From: Tannerellaceae bacterium
GTDB lineage: Bacteria > Bacteroidota > Bacteroidia > Bacteroidales > Tannerellaceae
Reading direction: 5' to 3'
Length of the DNA: 55,765 bases
NCBI GenBank assembly: GCA_031264865.1
Contig: JAISDJ010000107.1
Coordinates: forward strand, 1-55,765
Shown: piece by piece, positions 23,830-55,765 of the stretch
Position numbering within the stretch: position 1 is the stretch's first letter
Layout of the letters: each line of letters starts with the position of its first letter
The notes under the pieces: generated by a model
What the model saw: only the letters and a program-made list of their open reading frames with translations
What the model was told of the DNA's origin: nothing
Database searches by the model: none
Program-made: the position numbers and the translations under genes

Positions 23830-23896
23830 AAAAAAATAGTCATTCTACTGTACAAAATGAATTATTTTTAGAGCAACTACCTTAAACCGCTAAACC

Positions 23897-51084: not shown

Positions 51085-53007
51085 ATGAATCCATATAAAT
51101 TAAGCGCCTGGTTACCCACTACCAAAAAGGACGTAGAAGCAAGAGGCTGGGATTATCTTGATGTTATTCTCTTTAGTGGTGATGCGTATGTAGACCATCC
51201 TTCGTTTGGGGCTGCCGTAATTGGACGCTTGTTGGAATCCGAAGGGTTACGAGTGGCTATTGTTCCTCAACCTGATTGGCATGGCGATTATCGTGACTTT
51301 AAGAAATTGGGAAAGCCCCGTCTCTTTTTCGGTGTATCGCCGGTAGCGATGGATTCGATGATCAATCATTACACAGCTAATAAGCGCCTGCGTAGCGACG
51401 ATGCTTACACGCCCGATCGTCGTCCGGGTATGCGTCCCGATTATCCCAGTATTGTTTATACAAAGATATTGAAAGAGCTTTATCCTGATATTCCGGTTGT
51501 TTTGGGAGGAATTGAAGCCTCCCTCCGCCGCCTGACTCATTACGATTACTGGCAAGATAAGTTAAAACCAGGTATTCTTATCGAAAGCCATGCTGATTTA
51601 TTAATCTATGGTATGGGCGAACAACCCCTCCGCGAACTAATAAAAAGAGTAAAGAATGGAGAACAGTTTCAAGAGATAAAGGATATTAAGCAGACAGCAT
51701 ATGTGGAATCAACCCCACCTCAACCCACTCCCCAACCCACTCCCCAACCCCCTAAAGGGGGGGTAGAGAGAATCGTCCCTGTCAGCCCCCCCTTTAGGGG
51801 GTTGGGGGGTGGGCTGGGGGGCGGAGGCGGGCTGGGCATTCTCCTCTATTCCCACGAAGAATGTCTGAAAGATAAGTTGAAGCAGGCTAAAAATTTCCGT
51901 TACATAGAAGAAGAATCGAATAAATATGAAGCTTCGCGTATCATACAACAGGTAGGCAACCAATGGATAATCGTCAATCCGCCTTTCCCTCCCATGACAC
52001 AGGATGAAATTGATGCTTCTTTTGATTTACCTTATACCCGTTTACCGCATCCGAAATATAAGGGTAAAGAAATTCCGGCTTTCGAGATGATTAAACATTC
52101 CGTAAATCTGCACAGAGGATGTTTTGGGGGATGTGCCTTCTGTACCATATCAGCCCATCAGGGTAAATTTATTGCTTCACGCAGTAAAGAATCCATCTTG
52201 AAAGAAGTAAAAGCTGTGACAAATATGCCTGATTTTAAGGGTTATCTGAGTGATTTGGGAGGACCTTCGGCGAATATGTACCAAATGAAAGGAAAAGATG
52301 AAACAATCTGCCGTAAATGCCGGAAGCCCTCTTGTATATTCCCCGTTATATGTAAGAACCTGCATGCCGATCATACGCCTATGCTTGATATATATAAGGC
52401 GGTAGATAATTTACCGGAAGTAAAGAAGTCATTTATAGGAAGTGGCGTACGTTACGATTTACTGCTACATGACTATGAAGATGAGGAACAGAATAAATCA
52501 GCCCGAGCTTATATTGAAGAACTGATAATCCGGCATATCTCCGGTCGTTTGAAGGTAGCTCCCGAACATACAGAACCCAATGTGTTGAAGATAATGAGAA
52601 AACCCTCTTTTGAACTGTTCGGCAGATTCAAACGGATTTTCGAACGTGTCAACAAACAAAACGGACTAAATCAGCAATTGATCCCTTATTTCATATCCAG
52701 TCATCCCGGTTGTACAGAAGCGGATATGGCAGCATTGGCCGTTGAAACAAAAGGATTAAATTTCCGATTGGAACAAGTGCAAGATTTTACCCCATCACCC
52801 ATGACATTAGCTACAGAAATATATTATACGGGATATCATCCCTATACATTGGAAAAAGTGTACACAGCCCGGACCAAAAACGAAAAATTGGCTCAACGAC
52901 AGTATTTTTTCTGGTATAAGCCGGAGTTTCGCAGGCAAATAACCCATTCCTTGCAGCGTCTGAAAAAGAATGATTTAATAAAGAAATTGTTTGGGCGGAC
53001 GCAATAA
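51085..53007 (+). CDS. ygiQ: YgiQ-family radical SAM protein with in-frame insertion
   Basis: A 640-aa radical SAM protein of the YgiQ family. It has an N-terminal B12-binding-like domain (about 10-210, DVILFSGDAYVDHPSFGAAV) and the cluster motif CFGGCAFC near residues 348-355. The radical SAM core and a C-terminal YgiQ domain (FRLEQVQDFTPSPMTLATEI, IKKLFGR) follow. The reaction is unknown. Residues of about 209-250, rich in proline then glycine, are encoded by a palindromic repeat and break the family alignment between KQTAYVE and the LLYSHEECLKDK block. The frame is kept, so the protein is likely still made. The start is fixed by the conserved SAWLPTTKKDVEARGWD and the promoter just before it. 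Confidence 0.9.
   Translation: MNPYKLSAWLPTTKKDVEARGWDYLDVILFSGDAYVDHPSFGAAVIGRLLESEGLRVAIVPQPDWHGDYRDFKKLGKPRLFFGVSPVAMDSMINHYTANKRLRSDDAYTPDRRPGMRPDYPSIVYTKILKELYPDIPVVLGGIEASLRRLTHYDYWQDKLKPGILIESHADLLIYGMGEQPLRELIKRVKNGEQFQEIKDIKQTAYVESTPPQPTPQPTPQPPKGGVERIVPVSPPFRGLGGGLGGGGGLGILLYSHEECLKDKLKQAKNFRYIEEESNKYEASRIIQQVGNQWIIVNPPFPPMTQDEIDASFDLPYTRLPHPKYKGKEIPAFEMIKHSVNLHRGCFGGCAFCTISAHQGKFIASRSKESILKEVKAVTNMPDFKGYLSDLGGPSANMYQMKGKDETICRKCRKPSCIFPVICKNLHADHTPMLDIYKAVDNLPEVKKSFIGSGVRYDLLLHDYEDEEQNKSARAYIEELIIRHISGRLKVAPEHTEPNVLKIMRKPSFELFGRFKRIFERVNKQNGLNQQLIPYFISSHPGCTEADMAALAVETKGLNFRLEQVQDFTPSPMTLATEIYYTGYHPYTLEKVYTARTKNEKLAQRQYFFWYKPEFRRQITHSLQRLKKNDLIKKLFGRTQ
51711..51837. repeat. Palindromic repeat inserted inside ygiQ
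   Basis: Two C/G-rich arms (about 51711-51763 and 51786-51837) are imperfect reverse complements around a 22-base centre. Both contain the CCCCTAAAGGGG / CCCCTTTAGGGG core and repeats of CCCCAACCCACT or GGTTGGGGGG type. The whole keeps the reading frame. It matches the shorter elements at 2425 and 2499. Confidence 0.8.
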
Positions 53008-53021
53008 AACGACTATCTTTG
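52990..53021 (+). promoter_or_regulatory. Promoter of the LytTR-FHA locus
   Basis: TTTG (52990-52993) and TATCTTTG (53014-53021) are separated by 20 bases, a full match to both boxes of the Bacteroidetes promoter. It overlaps the end of ygiQ and lies 36 bases before the LytTR ATG. Confidence 0.75.
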
Positions 53022-53057
53022 TTGTTTGATTAAGAAAGAAAAAGTCAACAGCCACGT

Positions 53058-53447
53058 ATGGAGCGTTATTTAATTATTAAGACAAGGGATGAATTGTTGC
53101 GTATAAAGATAGGTCAGATACTTTACTTTGAGGCTGATAGAAATTACACTAAACTACTCTTATCTAATGGAATCCAATTTACATTTGCCATTAATATAGG
53201 CAAAATTGAAGAAATATTGGAAAAACAGGTAGCAGGTAGTAGCAGTATTCTAATGCGCGTGGGTAAAAGTCATATCATCAACAAAAATCATATTTTACAG
53301 ATAAATTTACCTAAGCAACGATTGCTACTTTTAACAGGCGAAGGAAAACCCAAAGAATTAGTCATCTCCAAAGACCCGTTGAAAACACTGAAAGATTCAT
53401 TTGAAAAGGAAATGGGTAAAGCAGAAGAAGAGGAAGGAACAAAATAG
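53058..53447 (+). CDS. Stand-alone LytTR DNA-binding protein
   Basis: A 129-aa protein consisting essentially of one LytTR domain (about 8-112; ILYFEADRNYTKLLLSNG, LMRVGKSHIINKNHI). There is no receiver domain, so it is not a classic two-component regulator and its signal must come otherwise, for instance by phosphorylation or protein contact. It is two bases upstream of an FHA-domain gene and likely the transcription factor of the phospho-signalling locus. The tail is highly charged (KEMGKAEEEEGTK). Confidence 0.88.
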   Translation: MERYLIIKTRDELLRIKIGQILYFEADRNYTKLLLSNGIQFTFAINIGKIEEILEKQVAGSSSILMRVGKSHIINKNHILQINLPKQRLLLLTGEGKPKELVISKDPLKTLKDSFEKEMGKAEEEEGTK

Positions 53448-53449
53448 CA

Positions 53450-54103
53450 ATGGTAATAACAATAGGTAGAGCCGGAGATAATGATTTCGTTGTAAACGAT
53501 CCTCATGTAAGCAGGTATCATGCACGGCTGTTGCGTGATGAAGAGGGATGTTTGTTTCTAGAGGATATGGCCTCTACCAGCGGTACATTTGTCAACGGTA
53601 GCCAGATTGCAAAGAAAAAAGTGTCTCTTACTGATACCATATGGTTTGGAGAAGAGTATAAGCTGGAACTTTCCGAAGTATTAAAAGCCGGAAATGATTA
53701 TAGTGAAGATTTTGCTCAATTGAAAGAGATATATGATAAGTATATTGAACAGAAAGTCAAAATACAATCCTCTAATCAGTTCAAGACGCGTTTGTTCCAG
53801 ACTTTGCCGTTTGCTTTTATTGGTGTCATAGGCGTTTTAATCAGCACATTGGGAAAAGGAAGCACTGTTTTGTTCGGAATAAGTTTATTTGTTACGATTT
53901 GTGTACCAACGATCGGTATTTATCTGGGGGCTAAACAATCAGCCAAGATACCCCGTCAGTTGCAAGACCTTGCCAACCAGTTCAAAATAGATTATGTATG
54001 TCCTAAATGCGGAACATTTTTGGGAGAGATCCCTTGGGAATCGTTATCCAACCGGAAACAATGTCCGGTTTCATCGTGTAAGGCGAAATGGGTAAAAGAT
54101 TGA
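53450..54103 (+). CDS. FHA-domain membrane protein with C-terminal zinc ribbon
   Basis: A 217-aa protein. Its N-terminal FHA domain (about 1-75) keeps the phosphothreonine-binding residues in GRAGDND, VSRYHARL and FVNGSQI. A linker helix follows, then two hydrophobic helices (about 122-165, LPFAFIGVIGVLISTLG, VLFGISLFVTICVPTIGIYL). It ends in a cysteine motif CPKCG...CPVSSCKAKW like a rubredoxin-type knuckle. It should tie a phosphorylated partner to the inner membrane. It lies next to LytTR, a second FHA protein and PP2C. Confidence 0.88.
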   Translation: MVITIGRAGDNDFVVNDPHVSRYHARLLRDEEGCLFLEDMASTSGTFVNGSQIAKKKVSLTDTIWFGEEYKLELSEVLKAGNDYSEDFAQLKEIYDKYIEQKVKIQSSNQFKTRLFQTLPFAFIGVIGVLISTLGKGSTVLFGISLFVTICVPTIGIYLGAKQSAKIPRQLQDLANQFKIDYVCPKCGTFLGEIPWESLSNRKQCPVSSCKAKWVKD

Positions 54104-54195
54104 TACTTCGTATACCAAAACTACCCTTTTGTACAGTAAACCGGATTGTATGATTAATAGGTTACTTTTCGTAAAATCACAATCAATACTTTTCC

Positions 54196-54203
54196 TACCT
54201 TTG
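54196..54203 (+). promoter_or_regulatory. Promoter -7 box for the acidic protein, FHA and PP2C genes
   Basis: TACCTTTG is a perfect TAnnTTTG box 30 bases before the ATG at 54234, in a 130-base gap. No -33 TTTG is seen at normal spacing. The three downstream genes may therefore be transcribed apart from the LytTR-FHA pair. Confidence 0.6.
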
Positions 54204-54233
54204 TTTCATAAATTATGAGATAAATAATTTTAT

Positions 54234-54473
54234 ATGCAGGAAGAAGAATATACATTCGTTACGATTGATAGTGATGATTCTCTGTTTTCGGATGCGGTTG
54301 TTATTGATATGGATAACAACGATGATTTGGCAGGAATAGTAACTATTGATGAAAGCATGGACAATTCGGATTTCATTACCCTTGCGGATGATACGATCAT
54401 GCTTTCGGACGCTGATATGATTGATGCTTATTCAAGCGACATCAGCGATATGGACATTTCAATCATGATATGA
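54234..54473 (+). CDS. Small wholly acidic protein in the FHA/PP2C locus
   Basis: A 79-aa protein with 19 Asp and 4 Glu and not a single Lys, Arg or His, so its net charge is about -23. It contains a repeated VTID motif (9-12 and 36-39) and five threonines. T49 has Asp at +3 (TLADD) and T54 has Leu at +3 (TIMLS), spacings that FHA domains often select. There is no signal peptide or membrane helix. Its stop overlaps the ATG of the next FHA gene (ATGA), so it is made together with that protein. I do not recognise the family. A phosphorylatable ligand or regulator of the neighbouring FHA proteins is a reasonable but unproven idea. Confidence 0.7.
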   Translation: MQEEEYTFVTIDSDDSLFSDAVVIDMDNNDDLAGIVTIDESMDNSDFITLADDTIMLSDADMIDAYSSDISDMDISIMI

Positions 54474-54988
54474 TTGCTGTTAAATGTCCACATTGCCATG
54501 TGGGATTGAAGGTAGATGAAAAGAAGTTGCCTTCTGATATCACTTCCTTCAAATGTCCCAAATGCAAGTGTCCCATTCCCGTCTCCATGCTTTCGCAGAA
54601 AGAAGGAGAGGGGACTTCTTCGTCTGATACCGTTTTATTGCATCTCATGAAAAAAGGAATCGGCAAAATAACCGTTTTGCCTAATGATGAGACAGCCGAA
54701 CAAGTATTTCTCCTTGCTGAAGGTGTTTCCATTATCGGACGGAAATCTACTAAACCTTCCCTCACAACAATCGGCATTGAAACAACCGACAGGTCGATGA
54801 GCCGTGAACATATCCGGATAGAAGTAAAAAAAGATCCAAAAGGGGGCTATAAACATTATCTTTCCGATAATAATAGTAAAAACCGTACGTTATATAATAG
54901 CAATTACTTAGGAGAAGGTGAAGTGGTAATATTGAATAACAATGAAGAGATTATCATAGGCCGTACCGTACTCCGTTTTAACGAATAA
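54470..54988 (+). CDS. Zinc-ribbon plus FHA-domain protein
   Basis: A 172-aa soluble protein. An N-terminal zinc ribbon (CPHCHVGLKV, then CPKCKCPIPV, residues about 5-40) of the MJ0042 type is followed by a short linker and an FHA domain (about 75-170; SIIGRKSTKP, MSREHIRIEV, NRTLYN). Between FHA strands there is an extra segment (SLTTIGIETTDR). It is translationally coupled to the acidic protein and 13 bases upstream of the PP2C gene. Confidence 0.85.
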   Translation: MIAVKCPHCHVGLKVDEKKLPSDITSFKCPKCKCPIPVSMLSQKEGEGTSSSDTVLLHLMKKGIGKITVLPNDETAEQVFLLAEGVSIIGRKSTKPSLTTIGIETTDRSMSREHIRIEVKKDPKGGYKHYLSDNNSKNRTLYNSNYLGEGEVVILNNNEEIIIGRTVLRFNE

Positions 54989-55001
54989 ACGTATTGCTAT
55001 T

Positions 55002-55765
55002 ATGAACATTACAATAGGAAAATCCTGTGCAATTAGTGAAAAAGGCGGCAGGCAAAACAATGAAGACGCTATTTACCCGCAGCCTGAGGCTGTAAAGCTT
55101 ACGCAGAAATTGTTTTTGGTTTGCGACGGAGTAGGAGGAGCCGAAAAAGGAGAAATAGCGAGTTCGTTAGCCTGTGATTATTTCCAATGGTACTTTTTGA
55201 ATATGCCGGAAGAAGACAAATCTACCCCTGAATTTATCAAAAAGGCGTTGCGTTATACGGAAATAAAATTCGATGAATATATTGCTGAACATCCTGAAGC
55301 TACCGGAATGGCTACTACACTGACGATGTTGTATGTAAGCTGGTCGGGCATAACATTGGCTCACGTTGGCGACAGCCGGATTTACCAATTCCGTGAAGGC
55401 AAAATCATTTATAAGACCGAAGACCATTCATTAGTTAATTCTTTGATACAACTAGGGCAGATAACTCCCGAAGAAGCCCGTAATCATCCTCAGCGAAATG
55501 TGATAACACGCGCCCTTCAAGGAACCAAACATCCCTCGGAAGCCGACGTAATCTTACTAAAGGATATAGAGCCCGGCGACTATTTTTTCATGTGCACCGA
55601 TGGTGTAATGGAAAACTTTATCGACGAATCTTTAGCGGTCCTTTTCAAAGAAAAAGTAGCATCGGAAGTTATTAAAGATACCCTCGTAGAAACCTGTAAC
55701 GGAAAAACCCGGGATAACTTCTCTTTTTATATTATTCCCATTCAAAATGTGCAGGAATCTGATAG
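55002..55765 (+). CDS. PP2C-type serine/threonine phosphatase (cut by window end)
   Basis: At least 254 codons of a PP2C/PPM metal-dependent phosphatase, running off the right edge without a stop. Motifs in order are the N-terminal KGGRQNNEDA, metal-binding CDGVGGAEKGE, GMATTLTMLYV, HVGDSRIYQFR, ITRALQG and CTDGVMENF. It should dephosphorylate Ser/Thr residues, reversing a kinase. The nearby FHA proteins are the natural readers of such marks. A serine/threonine kinase gene is the obvious thing to expect just beyond the window. Confidence 0.93.
   Translation, partial: MNITIGKSCAISEKGGRQNNEDAIYPQPEAVKLTQKLFLVCDGVGGAEKGEIASSLACDYFQWYFLNMPEEDKSTPEFIKKALRYTEIKFDEYIAEHPEATGMATTLTMLYVSWSGITLAHVGDSRIYQFREGKIIYKTEDHSLVNSLIQLGQITPEEARNHPQRNVITRALQGTKHPSEADVILLKDIEPGDYFFMCTDGVMENFIDESLAVLFKEKVASEVIKDTLVETCNGKTRDNFSFYIIPIQNVQESD

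Follow-up and report, generated by a model that had tools for sequence, protein, structure and literature searches.

The right end of a 55,765-nucleotide contig of a Tannerellaceae bacterium (GenBank assembly GCA_031264865.1, contig JAISDJ010000107.1; here called the window, which is our complete contig G000:C72) carries genes for a stand-alone LytTR DNA-binding protein, a protein with a forkhead-associated (FHA) domain (FHA1), a small acidic protein, a second FHA protein with a zinc ribbon (ZnFHA) and a PP2C phosphatase. Together with a Ser/Thr kinase and two putative envelope proteins encoded further downstream they constitute a conserved eight-gene set in gut and mouth bacteria, which looks like a protein-phosphorylation switch for its own signalling genes and for the surface-layer (S-layer) coat. 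We consider it probable (about 0.6) that the locus is a phosphothreonine-gated envelope-signalling system of the Tannerellaceae, in which LytTR drives both the second transcription unit of the locus (unit 2) and the S-layer genes. The gene content, the gene order, the operator sites in three target classes (the kinase operon, S-layer genes and a sigma factor gene) and the reciprocity of two separately built site profiles are observed directly. A first-pass annotation of the window had already read the five genes as a phospho-signalling locus, a reading that the adjacent kinase and the conserved order support; the operator sites, the two transcription units and the S-layer link are new. One predicted operator would tie together S-layer genes, an extracytoplasmic-function (ECF) sigma factor and a cascade based on a Ser/Thr kinase in common gut bacteria, which suggests a role for Bacteroidales FHA/PP2C/kinase clusters and a way in which surface coats may be both phase-variable and regulated in their expression.

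Gene content and conservation of the locus

All genes of the locus are read from the forward strand. The LytTR gene (53058..53447, 129 amino acids (aa); Pfam LytTR, 7.2e-10) and the FHA1 gene (53450..54103, 217 aa; Pfam FHA, 2.4e-17) are followed by the genes for the acidic protein (54234..54473, 79 aa; no Pfam family), for ZnFHA (54470..54988, 172 aa, sharing a 4 bp overlap with the acidic gene; Pfam FHA, 1.1e-09) and for PP2C (55002..55765, open at the contig end; Pfam PP2C_2, 5.8e-13). The five open reading frames (ORFs) are thus consecutive and placed as the first-pass annotation had them, all but the acidic one with Pfam support, and since all five are kept as proteins in relatives they are not chance ORFs. 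The right end of the window falls inside the PP2C gene, and its final 119 bases are identical to the initial 119 of contig C39 (L003), on which the PP2C stop lies at position 162. The Ser/Thr kinase that had been expected to the right proved to be the next gene (C39:201-2006, 601 aa; Pfam Pkinase, 9.6e-41), directly after PP2C. It is followed by genes for a 306-aa protein and for a Kelch- and fn3-domain protein of 721 aa (internal start), and then by an ORF that we take to be serine-acetyltransferase-like. No von Willebrand or TerD-type genes, which had also been suggested, were named among the conserved neighbours, where no family search aimed at them was made.

Of the 60 relatives searched, 32 contain a relative of FHA1, and the strong relatives belong to the window's own family. 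A scan of named genomes yielded 92 relatives, of which 80 were kept, and the kept loci came from Parabacteroides, Tannerella, Massilibacteroides, Tannerellaceae metagenome-assembled genomes, one Porphyromonadaceae and one Bacteroidia record. The order LytTR–FHA1–acidic–ZnFHA–PP2C was present in 74/80 named loci, the six-gene order that includes the kinase in 72/80 (nearly all Tannerellaceae), and all eight genes were consecutive in 60/80, so that the gene order, whose conservation the first-pass annotation had left to a survey, is kept in most of these genomes. Among the eight loci without the six-gene order, contig ends cut four (L077, L087, L095, L109) and four (L121, L130, L132, L137) depart from it there, as read from the lengths. 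The kinase and LytTR-FHA1 lie on separate contigs in G012 and G017.

Some loci are rearranged. In G016 (L048:6671-9313) an ORF of 880 aa between ZnFHA and PP2C splits the operon, and in G019 (L043:4480-7256) a LytTR and an FHA ORF are tandemly duplicated ahead of it. The genome of the window itself holds a paralogous, reordered set on two small contigs, L004 (G000:C207) and L053 (G000:C329), consisting of a LytTR, an acidic repeat protein with a hydrophobic stretch, a PP2C and a kinase, together with another FHA-helix-zinc protein that adjoins an acidic proline-rich protein. More divergent relatives with kinases, FHA proteins and PP2C in other orders were seen in L052 (G020), L063 (G045) and L064 (G051), which are placed at the edge of the family or outside it and possibly belong to a wider class of Bacteroidales FHA-kinase clusters. 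The viral contigs searched contained no ZnFHA relative.

Predicted operator sites and their candidate targets

Promoters of Bacteroidota follow a -33/-7 consensus. A pair of this type, TTTG-N20-TATCTTTG, lies at 52990..53021 on the forward strand, where it overlaps the 3' end of a radical-SAM gene, and is the candidate promoter (P1) of LytTR-FHA1. The gap between FHA1 and the acidic gene holds, on the same strand, a predicted operator (54107..54161) of three LytTR-type direct repeats (about 54107-54120, 54127-54141 and 54149-54160) with a period of 21-22 bp, and a putative -7 box, TACCTTTG, at 54196..54203 (P2, serving the unit acidic-ZnFHA-PP2C-kinase) with no clear -33 box. In 77 loci this gap measures 90-204 bp, and the motif TT[TCG]GTACA was found in 77/77 of the gaps against 0.8 expected by shuffling that preserved base composition only, as did all our shuffle controls. 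The 54 Parabacteroides-like gaps show the consensus repeats TTYGTATnnnAAA, TTTTGTACAgtAAAcc and TTTGATTATAAG, spaced 21-22 bp, and the 23 Tannerella-like gaps two clear repeats, TTTTGTACAATAA and TTTTGTACGTTA. A TAnnTTTG box follows the second repeat at a distance of 67-69 bp in 65/77 gaps, of 79-80 bp in seven and of 100-101 bp in three, the remaining two having no box; between the end of the third repeat and the expected -33 position, at which no clear box is visible, there are 10-12 bp.

The sequences upstream of LytTR are different in this respect. Among 56 that were extracted, the 54 of at least 80 bp were used, and TT[TCG]GTAC occurred on the strand of the LytTR gene in none of them (3/54 on either strand), while the TAnnTTTG box was present in 54/54 and the full TTTG-N19-21-TAnnTTTG pair in 19/54, including the window's own. 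Because LytTR is preceded by a promoter box of its own without repeats and the repeats together with a box are located in the FHA1-acidic gap, LytTR-FHA1 and acidic-ZnFHA-PP2C-kinase-barrel-Kelch appear to be two separate transcription units with the operator on the second only.

A site profile (R1), based on sequence alone, was built from 44 of the 54 Parabacteroides-like kinase-operon sites (near-duplicates and L144 dropped) and from none of the 23 Tannerella-like sites. Its best match in the genome of the window is 54107-54161 (49.9 bits, E 1e-12), the next best scoring 18.6 bits. Exactly one match at E<=1e-6 was obtained in 38 of the 58 family genomes, from which many of the training sites also come, and 37 of these 38 matches adjoin FHA1 or sit about 1.7 kb before the kinase; in G082 (C20) the R1 match is about 30 kb from the kinase on the same contig and the locus seems to be split. 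Eight weaker R1 matches were chosen for inspection. Four of them lie about 180-250 bp ahead of genes for large secreted proteins that begin M[NK]KKFFTL or MNKKIFTL, three of these proteins ending in DUF6383 and the fourth being cut before its C-terminus; one match precedes an ECF sigma factor gene and three have no clear target.

From the N-termini of these S-layer-type secreted proteins we made a second type of profile, A7, which matched in 23/24 chosen family genomes. In the genomes scanned both for S-layer genes and for R1 there were 46 secondary R1 matches at E<=0.1, of which 7 adjoin S-layer genes detected by A7 and 5 are located ahead of the sigma factor (about 0.016 expected), and 4 more coincide with sites of the profile R2 described below. 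Upstream of the S-layer genes the site pattern was found, in either orientation, in 26/30 cases (23 distinct sites; 0.125 expected by shuffling), the others being L202, with only 29 bases of upstream sequence, and L208, L213 and L218, in which the full pattern is missing.

Profile R2 was built from the S-layer sites alone, 23 of the 26, the other three being the same DNA viewed from a divergent gene. It recovers the kinase-operon site in at least 14/25 genomes (E up to 0.025), including that of the window (E 0.02), so that each profile leads back to the targets of the other. Among 30 R2 loci (14 training and 16 non-training sites) an S-layer-type start lies downstream of the site in 17 and only on the other side in 11, and the remaining two are one sigma factor and the kinase operon of G027. 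Four genomes (G089, G095, G097, G062) have 14 to 33 R2 matches each at E<=1, few of which were inspected; this suggests, from sequence, that one operator may serve large families of coat genes.

Tannerella forsythia has an S-layer, as presumably has Parabacteroides distasonis, and no regulator of S-layer genes was named in the accessible parts of the literature searched. The T. forsythia S-layer proteins TfsA and TfsB have 1,179 and 1,364 aa (PMC3354324), are classed among the proteins with a secretion-type C-terminal domain (CTD proteins; PMC4030854), and the S-layer is lost in mutants of the type IX secretion system (T9SS; PMC4175972). In G028 (L283) two adjacent ORFs, 1222 and 1376 aa long, both have internal MNKK starts and resemble each other closely at the C-terminus, where they are nearly identical; the pair has the size and order of TfsA/TfsB and carries an operator-type site upstream. 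This pair fits TfsA/TfsB, the naming resting on size, order and published texts, not on deposited sequences. A search of 25 genomes, including G012 and G026 (whose loci are reduced), gave no S-layer N-terminus; it had no positive control, and 20/25 genomes were from outside the family. The idea of S-layer loss as a natural kinase knock-out was dropped once the kinase of G012 (and of G017) was found on another contig.

At some S-layer genes the operator may be invertible. In L205, L223 and L225 the site points away from the S-layer gene and lies between inverted repeats with arms of 29-39 nt that are 142-144 nt apart, as would be expected of invertible promoters; at the same search setting no inverted repeats were detected around the site of L212, which points toward its gene. 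Phase-variable surface glycoproteins are known in P. distasonis (Fletcher et al. 2007, cited in PMC2943079), and their genes may be these S-layer-type genes, with the segments inverting.

The third target class is the gene for a 197-aa ECF sigma factor, which was picked up independently by both profiles (L186 via R1, L247 via R2). Orthologues are present in 27/28 genomes, and 23/27 of their upstream sequences contain TT[TCG]GTAC at 162-191 bp before the start (1.8 expected by shuffling). As judged by eye, the sites (L256-L281) fall within the stem of a hairpin that is probably the terminator of the preceding gene.

Further weak matches in the genome of the window were rejected as candidates. 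One at 23846-23870 of the window (minus strand, 12.5 bits, genome E 0.5) is near chance, and those on C142, C104 and C169 have no consistent target. The radical-SAM protein encoded 5' of LytTR contains a low-complexity PTPQPPKGG...PPFRGLGG insert (window 51700-51960), which resembles a dispersed repeat translated in frame.

The proposed switch and competing explanations

The proteins of the locus carry the residues expected of a phosphothreonine relay to different degrees. The FHA fold reads phosphothreonine through a motif of GR, SxxH and N residues. In ZnFHA all of these are present (R91, S111, R112, H114 and N138, invariant in 20/20 sequences), and in FHA1 the residues S21, R22, H24 and N49 are kept in 22/22. 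Position 44 of FHA1 is S in the window alone and otherwise N. The cysteine knuckles noted in both FHA proteins by the first-pass annotation are borne out by four invariant cysteines in each (C184/C187/C205/C210 of FHA1 in 22 sequences, C6/C9/C29/C32 of ZnFHA in 20), the Pfam zinc-ribbon matches of ZnFHA being below the family cut-offs. The AlphaFold2 model of FHA1 (mean predicted local distance difference test score (pLDDT) 86.3, predicted TM-score (pTM) 0.58) places two long helices between an N-terminal beta domain and a small C-terminal part with the zinc ribbon; two hydrophobic stretches, read by eye, fall within the two predicted helices, and on this basis FHA1 is a putative membrane protein, as the first-pass annotation had called it. 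In the acidic protein, a candidate phosphothreonine adaptor, T7 within the N-terminal YTFVTID is invariant in 22/22 sequences, T10 is T in 20/22, T49 in 18/22 (with D at +3 in 21/22) and T54 in 19/22 (with mostly L at +3); FHA domains favour particular residues at +3.

In the kinase a hydrophobic stretch is seen, again by eye, near residue 370, and H164, D166, K168 and N171 as well as the D184-F185-G186 motif do not vary among 20 sequences. In the AlphaFold2 model of the 306-aa protein (mean pLDDT 86.6, pTM 0.50) the N-terminal half is helical and the C-terminal domain a beta-sheet. Its best Foldseek matches are small outer-membrane barrels (Ail, OmpA, OmpX; E about 1e-6 to 1e-4), with low TM-scores and high root-mean-square deviation, and its helices match SEL1L more weakly; the protein is predicted from the model to be an outer-membrane barrel with a helical domain.

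In the reading that we favour, unit 1 would yield LytTR and membrane-bound FHA1 from P1, and FHA1 would keep LytTR inactive by analogy with the LytTR Regulatory Systems (LRS), in which a regulator without a receiver domain, considered unusual in the first-pass annotation, is instead the rule according to the accessible text of PMC6193735. Unit 2 would yield the acidic adaptor, ZnFHA, PP2C, the transmembrane kinase, the barrel protein and the Kelch/fn3 protein from P2. The envelope proteins might sense the state of the surface and thereby activate the kinase, which would phosphorylate the acidic protein, most likely at Thr7 of YTFVTID. Reading of the phosphothreonine by the FHA domains could then release LytTR, and PP2C would reset the switch. 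Free LytTR would activate unit 2, giving positive feedback, and also the TfsA/DUF6383-type S-layer genes and the ECF sigma factor gene. We infer here that it is the LytTR of the locus that binds the sites, and likewise the direction of control, the site of phosphorylation and the sensing step. A bolder version is tentative and, in our estimate, somewhat short of an even chance: the chain of envelope sensor, Ser/Thr kinase, acidic adaptor, membrane FHA inhibitor and LytTR would be a new class of bacterial signalling chain that sets the production of the S-layer in the Tannerellaceae, and the operators of Parabacteroides-like genomes would lie in invertible segments whose random inversion picks the coat gene to which the signal is passed.

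A number of observations weigh against phosphothreonine-gated control of the S-layer by LytTR. The conserved Arg of the GR motif is missing from FHA1 outside the window, position 7 being K in 21/22 sequences and R in the window only, and because K replaces the usual R at this contact position FHA1 may not bind phosphothreonine in the standard manner. At least one paralogous LytTR is encoded in the same genome (L004) and could bind the sites instead, and the operator is found ahead of the second unit and not, as in LRS, ahead of the LytTR operon. No recognised target adjoins 30/46 of the secondary R1 matches; R1 misses the G028 site, and neither the pattern nor R2 reveals a site at the TfsA/TfsB-like pair of G061. 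The co-occurrence of A7 matches with the kinase over 99 genomes is modest (58/89 genomes with the kinase, 2/10 without; Fisher's Exact Test, p = 0.013) and confounded by incomplete genomes and by phylogeny, with 31 genomes having the kinase and no A7 match (for example G027, with a full locus) and two, G001 and G085, an A7 match and no kinase match. The shuffle controls preserved nothing beyond base composition, and part of the conservation of the sigma-factor sites may be driven by the terminator, because site and terminator overlap.

In one alternative LytTR and FHA1 would be an independent neighbouring LRS that controls the S-layer without phosphothreonine, the kinase, PP2C and FHA proteins acting post-translationally on envelope proteins. 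We regard this as on the unlikely side. It agrees with the two transcription units, with the occurrence of LytTR-FHA1 without the other genes alongside in L049, L062, L121 and L137, with the kinase being on another contig than LytTR-FHA1 in G012 and G017, and with the K at the key position of FHA1, but it leaves unaccounted for that LytTR-FHA1 adjoins unit 2 through the kinase in 72/80 named loci, that the operator of unit 2 occurs in all 77 gaps, and that FHA1 retains S21, R22, H24 and N49 throughout.

It is also unlikely that another regulator, such as a second LytTR, binds the repeats and that the present LytTR controls something else. The assignment of the binding protein comes from position and conservation, and the paralogue on L004 is one candidate; however, R1 gives no match at E<=1 in the paralogous contigs L004 (C207) and L053 (C329), the single strong match of 38 genomes is at this locus in 37, and the layout of the repeats is that of LytTR sites. 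Threonine phosphorylation of the type VI secretion system (T6SS) kind, steering a secretion machine through PpkA, PppA and Fha rather than transcription, we hold to be highly improbable. The trio of kinase, PP2C phosphatase and FHA protein is identical and the NCBIfam model VI_FHA does match FHA1, though far below its cut-off (29.4 vs 120.25 bits), whereas LytTR, barrel and Kelch genes make up the conserved neighbourhood and the evidence from the operator favours transcription.

Comparison with known systems

The LRS, exemplified by HdrRM and BrsRM of Streptococcus mutans and with LRS-like operons in the Bacteroides fragilis group, consist of a soluble LytTR regulator and a membrane inhibitor and activate their own operon, and positive feedback plus outside targets have been predicted for them (PMC6193735). 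Their operator consists of direct repeats with an 11-13 bp spacer, about 10 bp before the -35 box and ahead of the LytTR operon (PMC6193735). The present locus is similar in that a small soluble LytTR without receiver is encoded with a putative membrane protein (FHA1, by eye) and in that the repeat period of 21-22 bp agrees with the LRS spacing, no clear -33 box being visible here. It is unlike LRS in that the membrane protein bears an FHA domain and a zinc ribbon, and in that the operator-bearing unit contains a kinase, a phosphatase, an acidic protein and envelope proteins; the word FHA has 0 occurrences in the main text of PMC6193735. Since the operator is placed differently and the input runs through FHA, kinase and PP2C, we describe the locus as an LRS-like system with phosphothreonine input and not as a member of the LRS. 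In the literature searched, mostly without subscription papers, no LytTR coupled to FHA/PP2C or to forkhead-associated proteins and a kinase was found, and a wider search had no LytTR among the matches listed.

Two well-known switches share the phosphothreonine chemistry. In the T6SS threonine phosphorylation pathway PpkA is the kinase, PppA the phosphatase and Fha the reader. The present locus has, in the same way, a membrane Ser/Thr kinase, a PP2C phosphatase and an FHA reader; unlike that pathway it has no secretion genes recognised among its conserved neighbours (no T6SS search was made), and its proposed output is a DNA-binding protein. GarA and OdhI of Actinobacteria carry, in a short region, a threonine to which the FHA domain binds once it has been phosphorylated. 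The proposed phosphorylated threonine would likewise lie in a short region bound by an FHA domain, but its motif belongs to a separate protein of 79 aa, and transcription is the output that we propose; the match of the OdhI model to the FHA region is weak (26.3 vs 200 bits).

With regard to the targets, the nearest parallel is PorXY/SigP. SigP, an ECF sigma factor of 193 aa, drives T9SS genes in Porphyromonas gingivalis (PMC4800418). The system proposed here would resemble it in the control of surface proteins related to the T9SS, with an ECF sigma factor of similar size (197 aa), and would differ in the signalling input, PorXY being a two-component system and the present locus a putative phosphothreonine switch.

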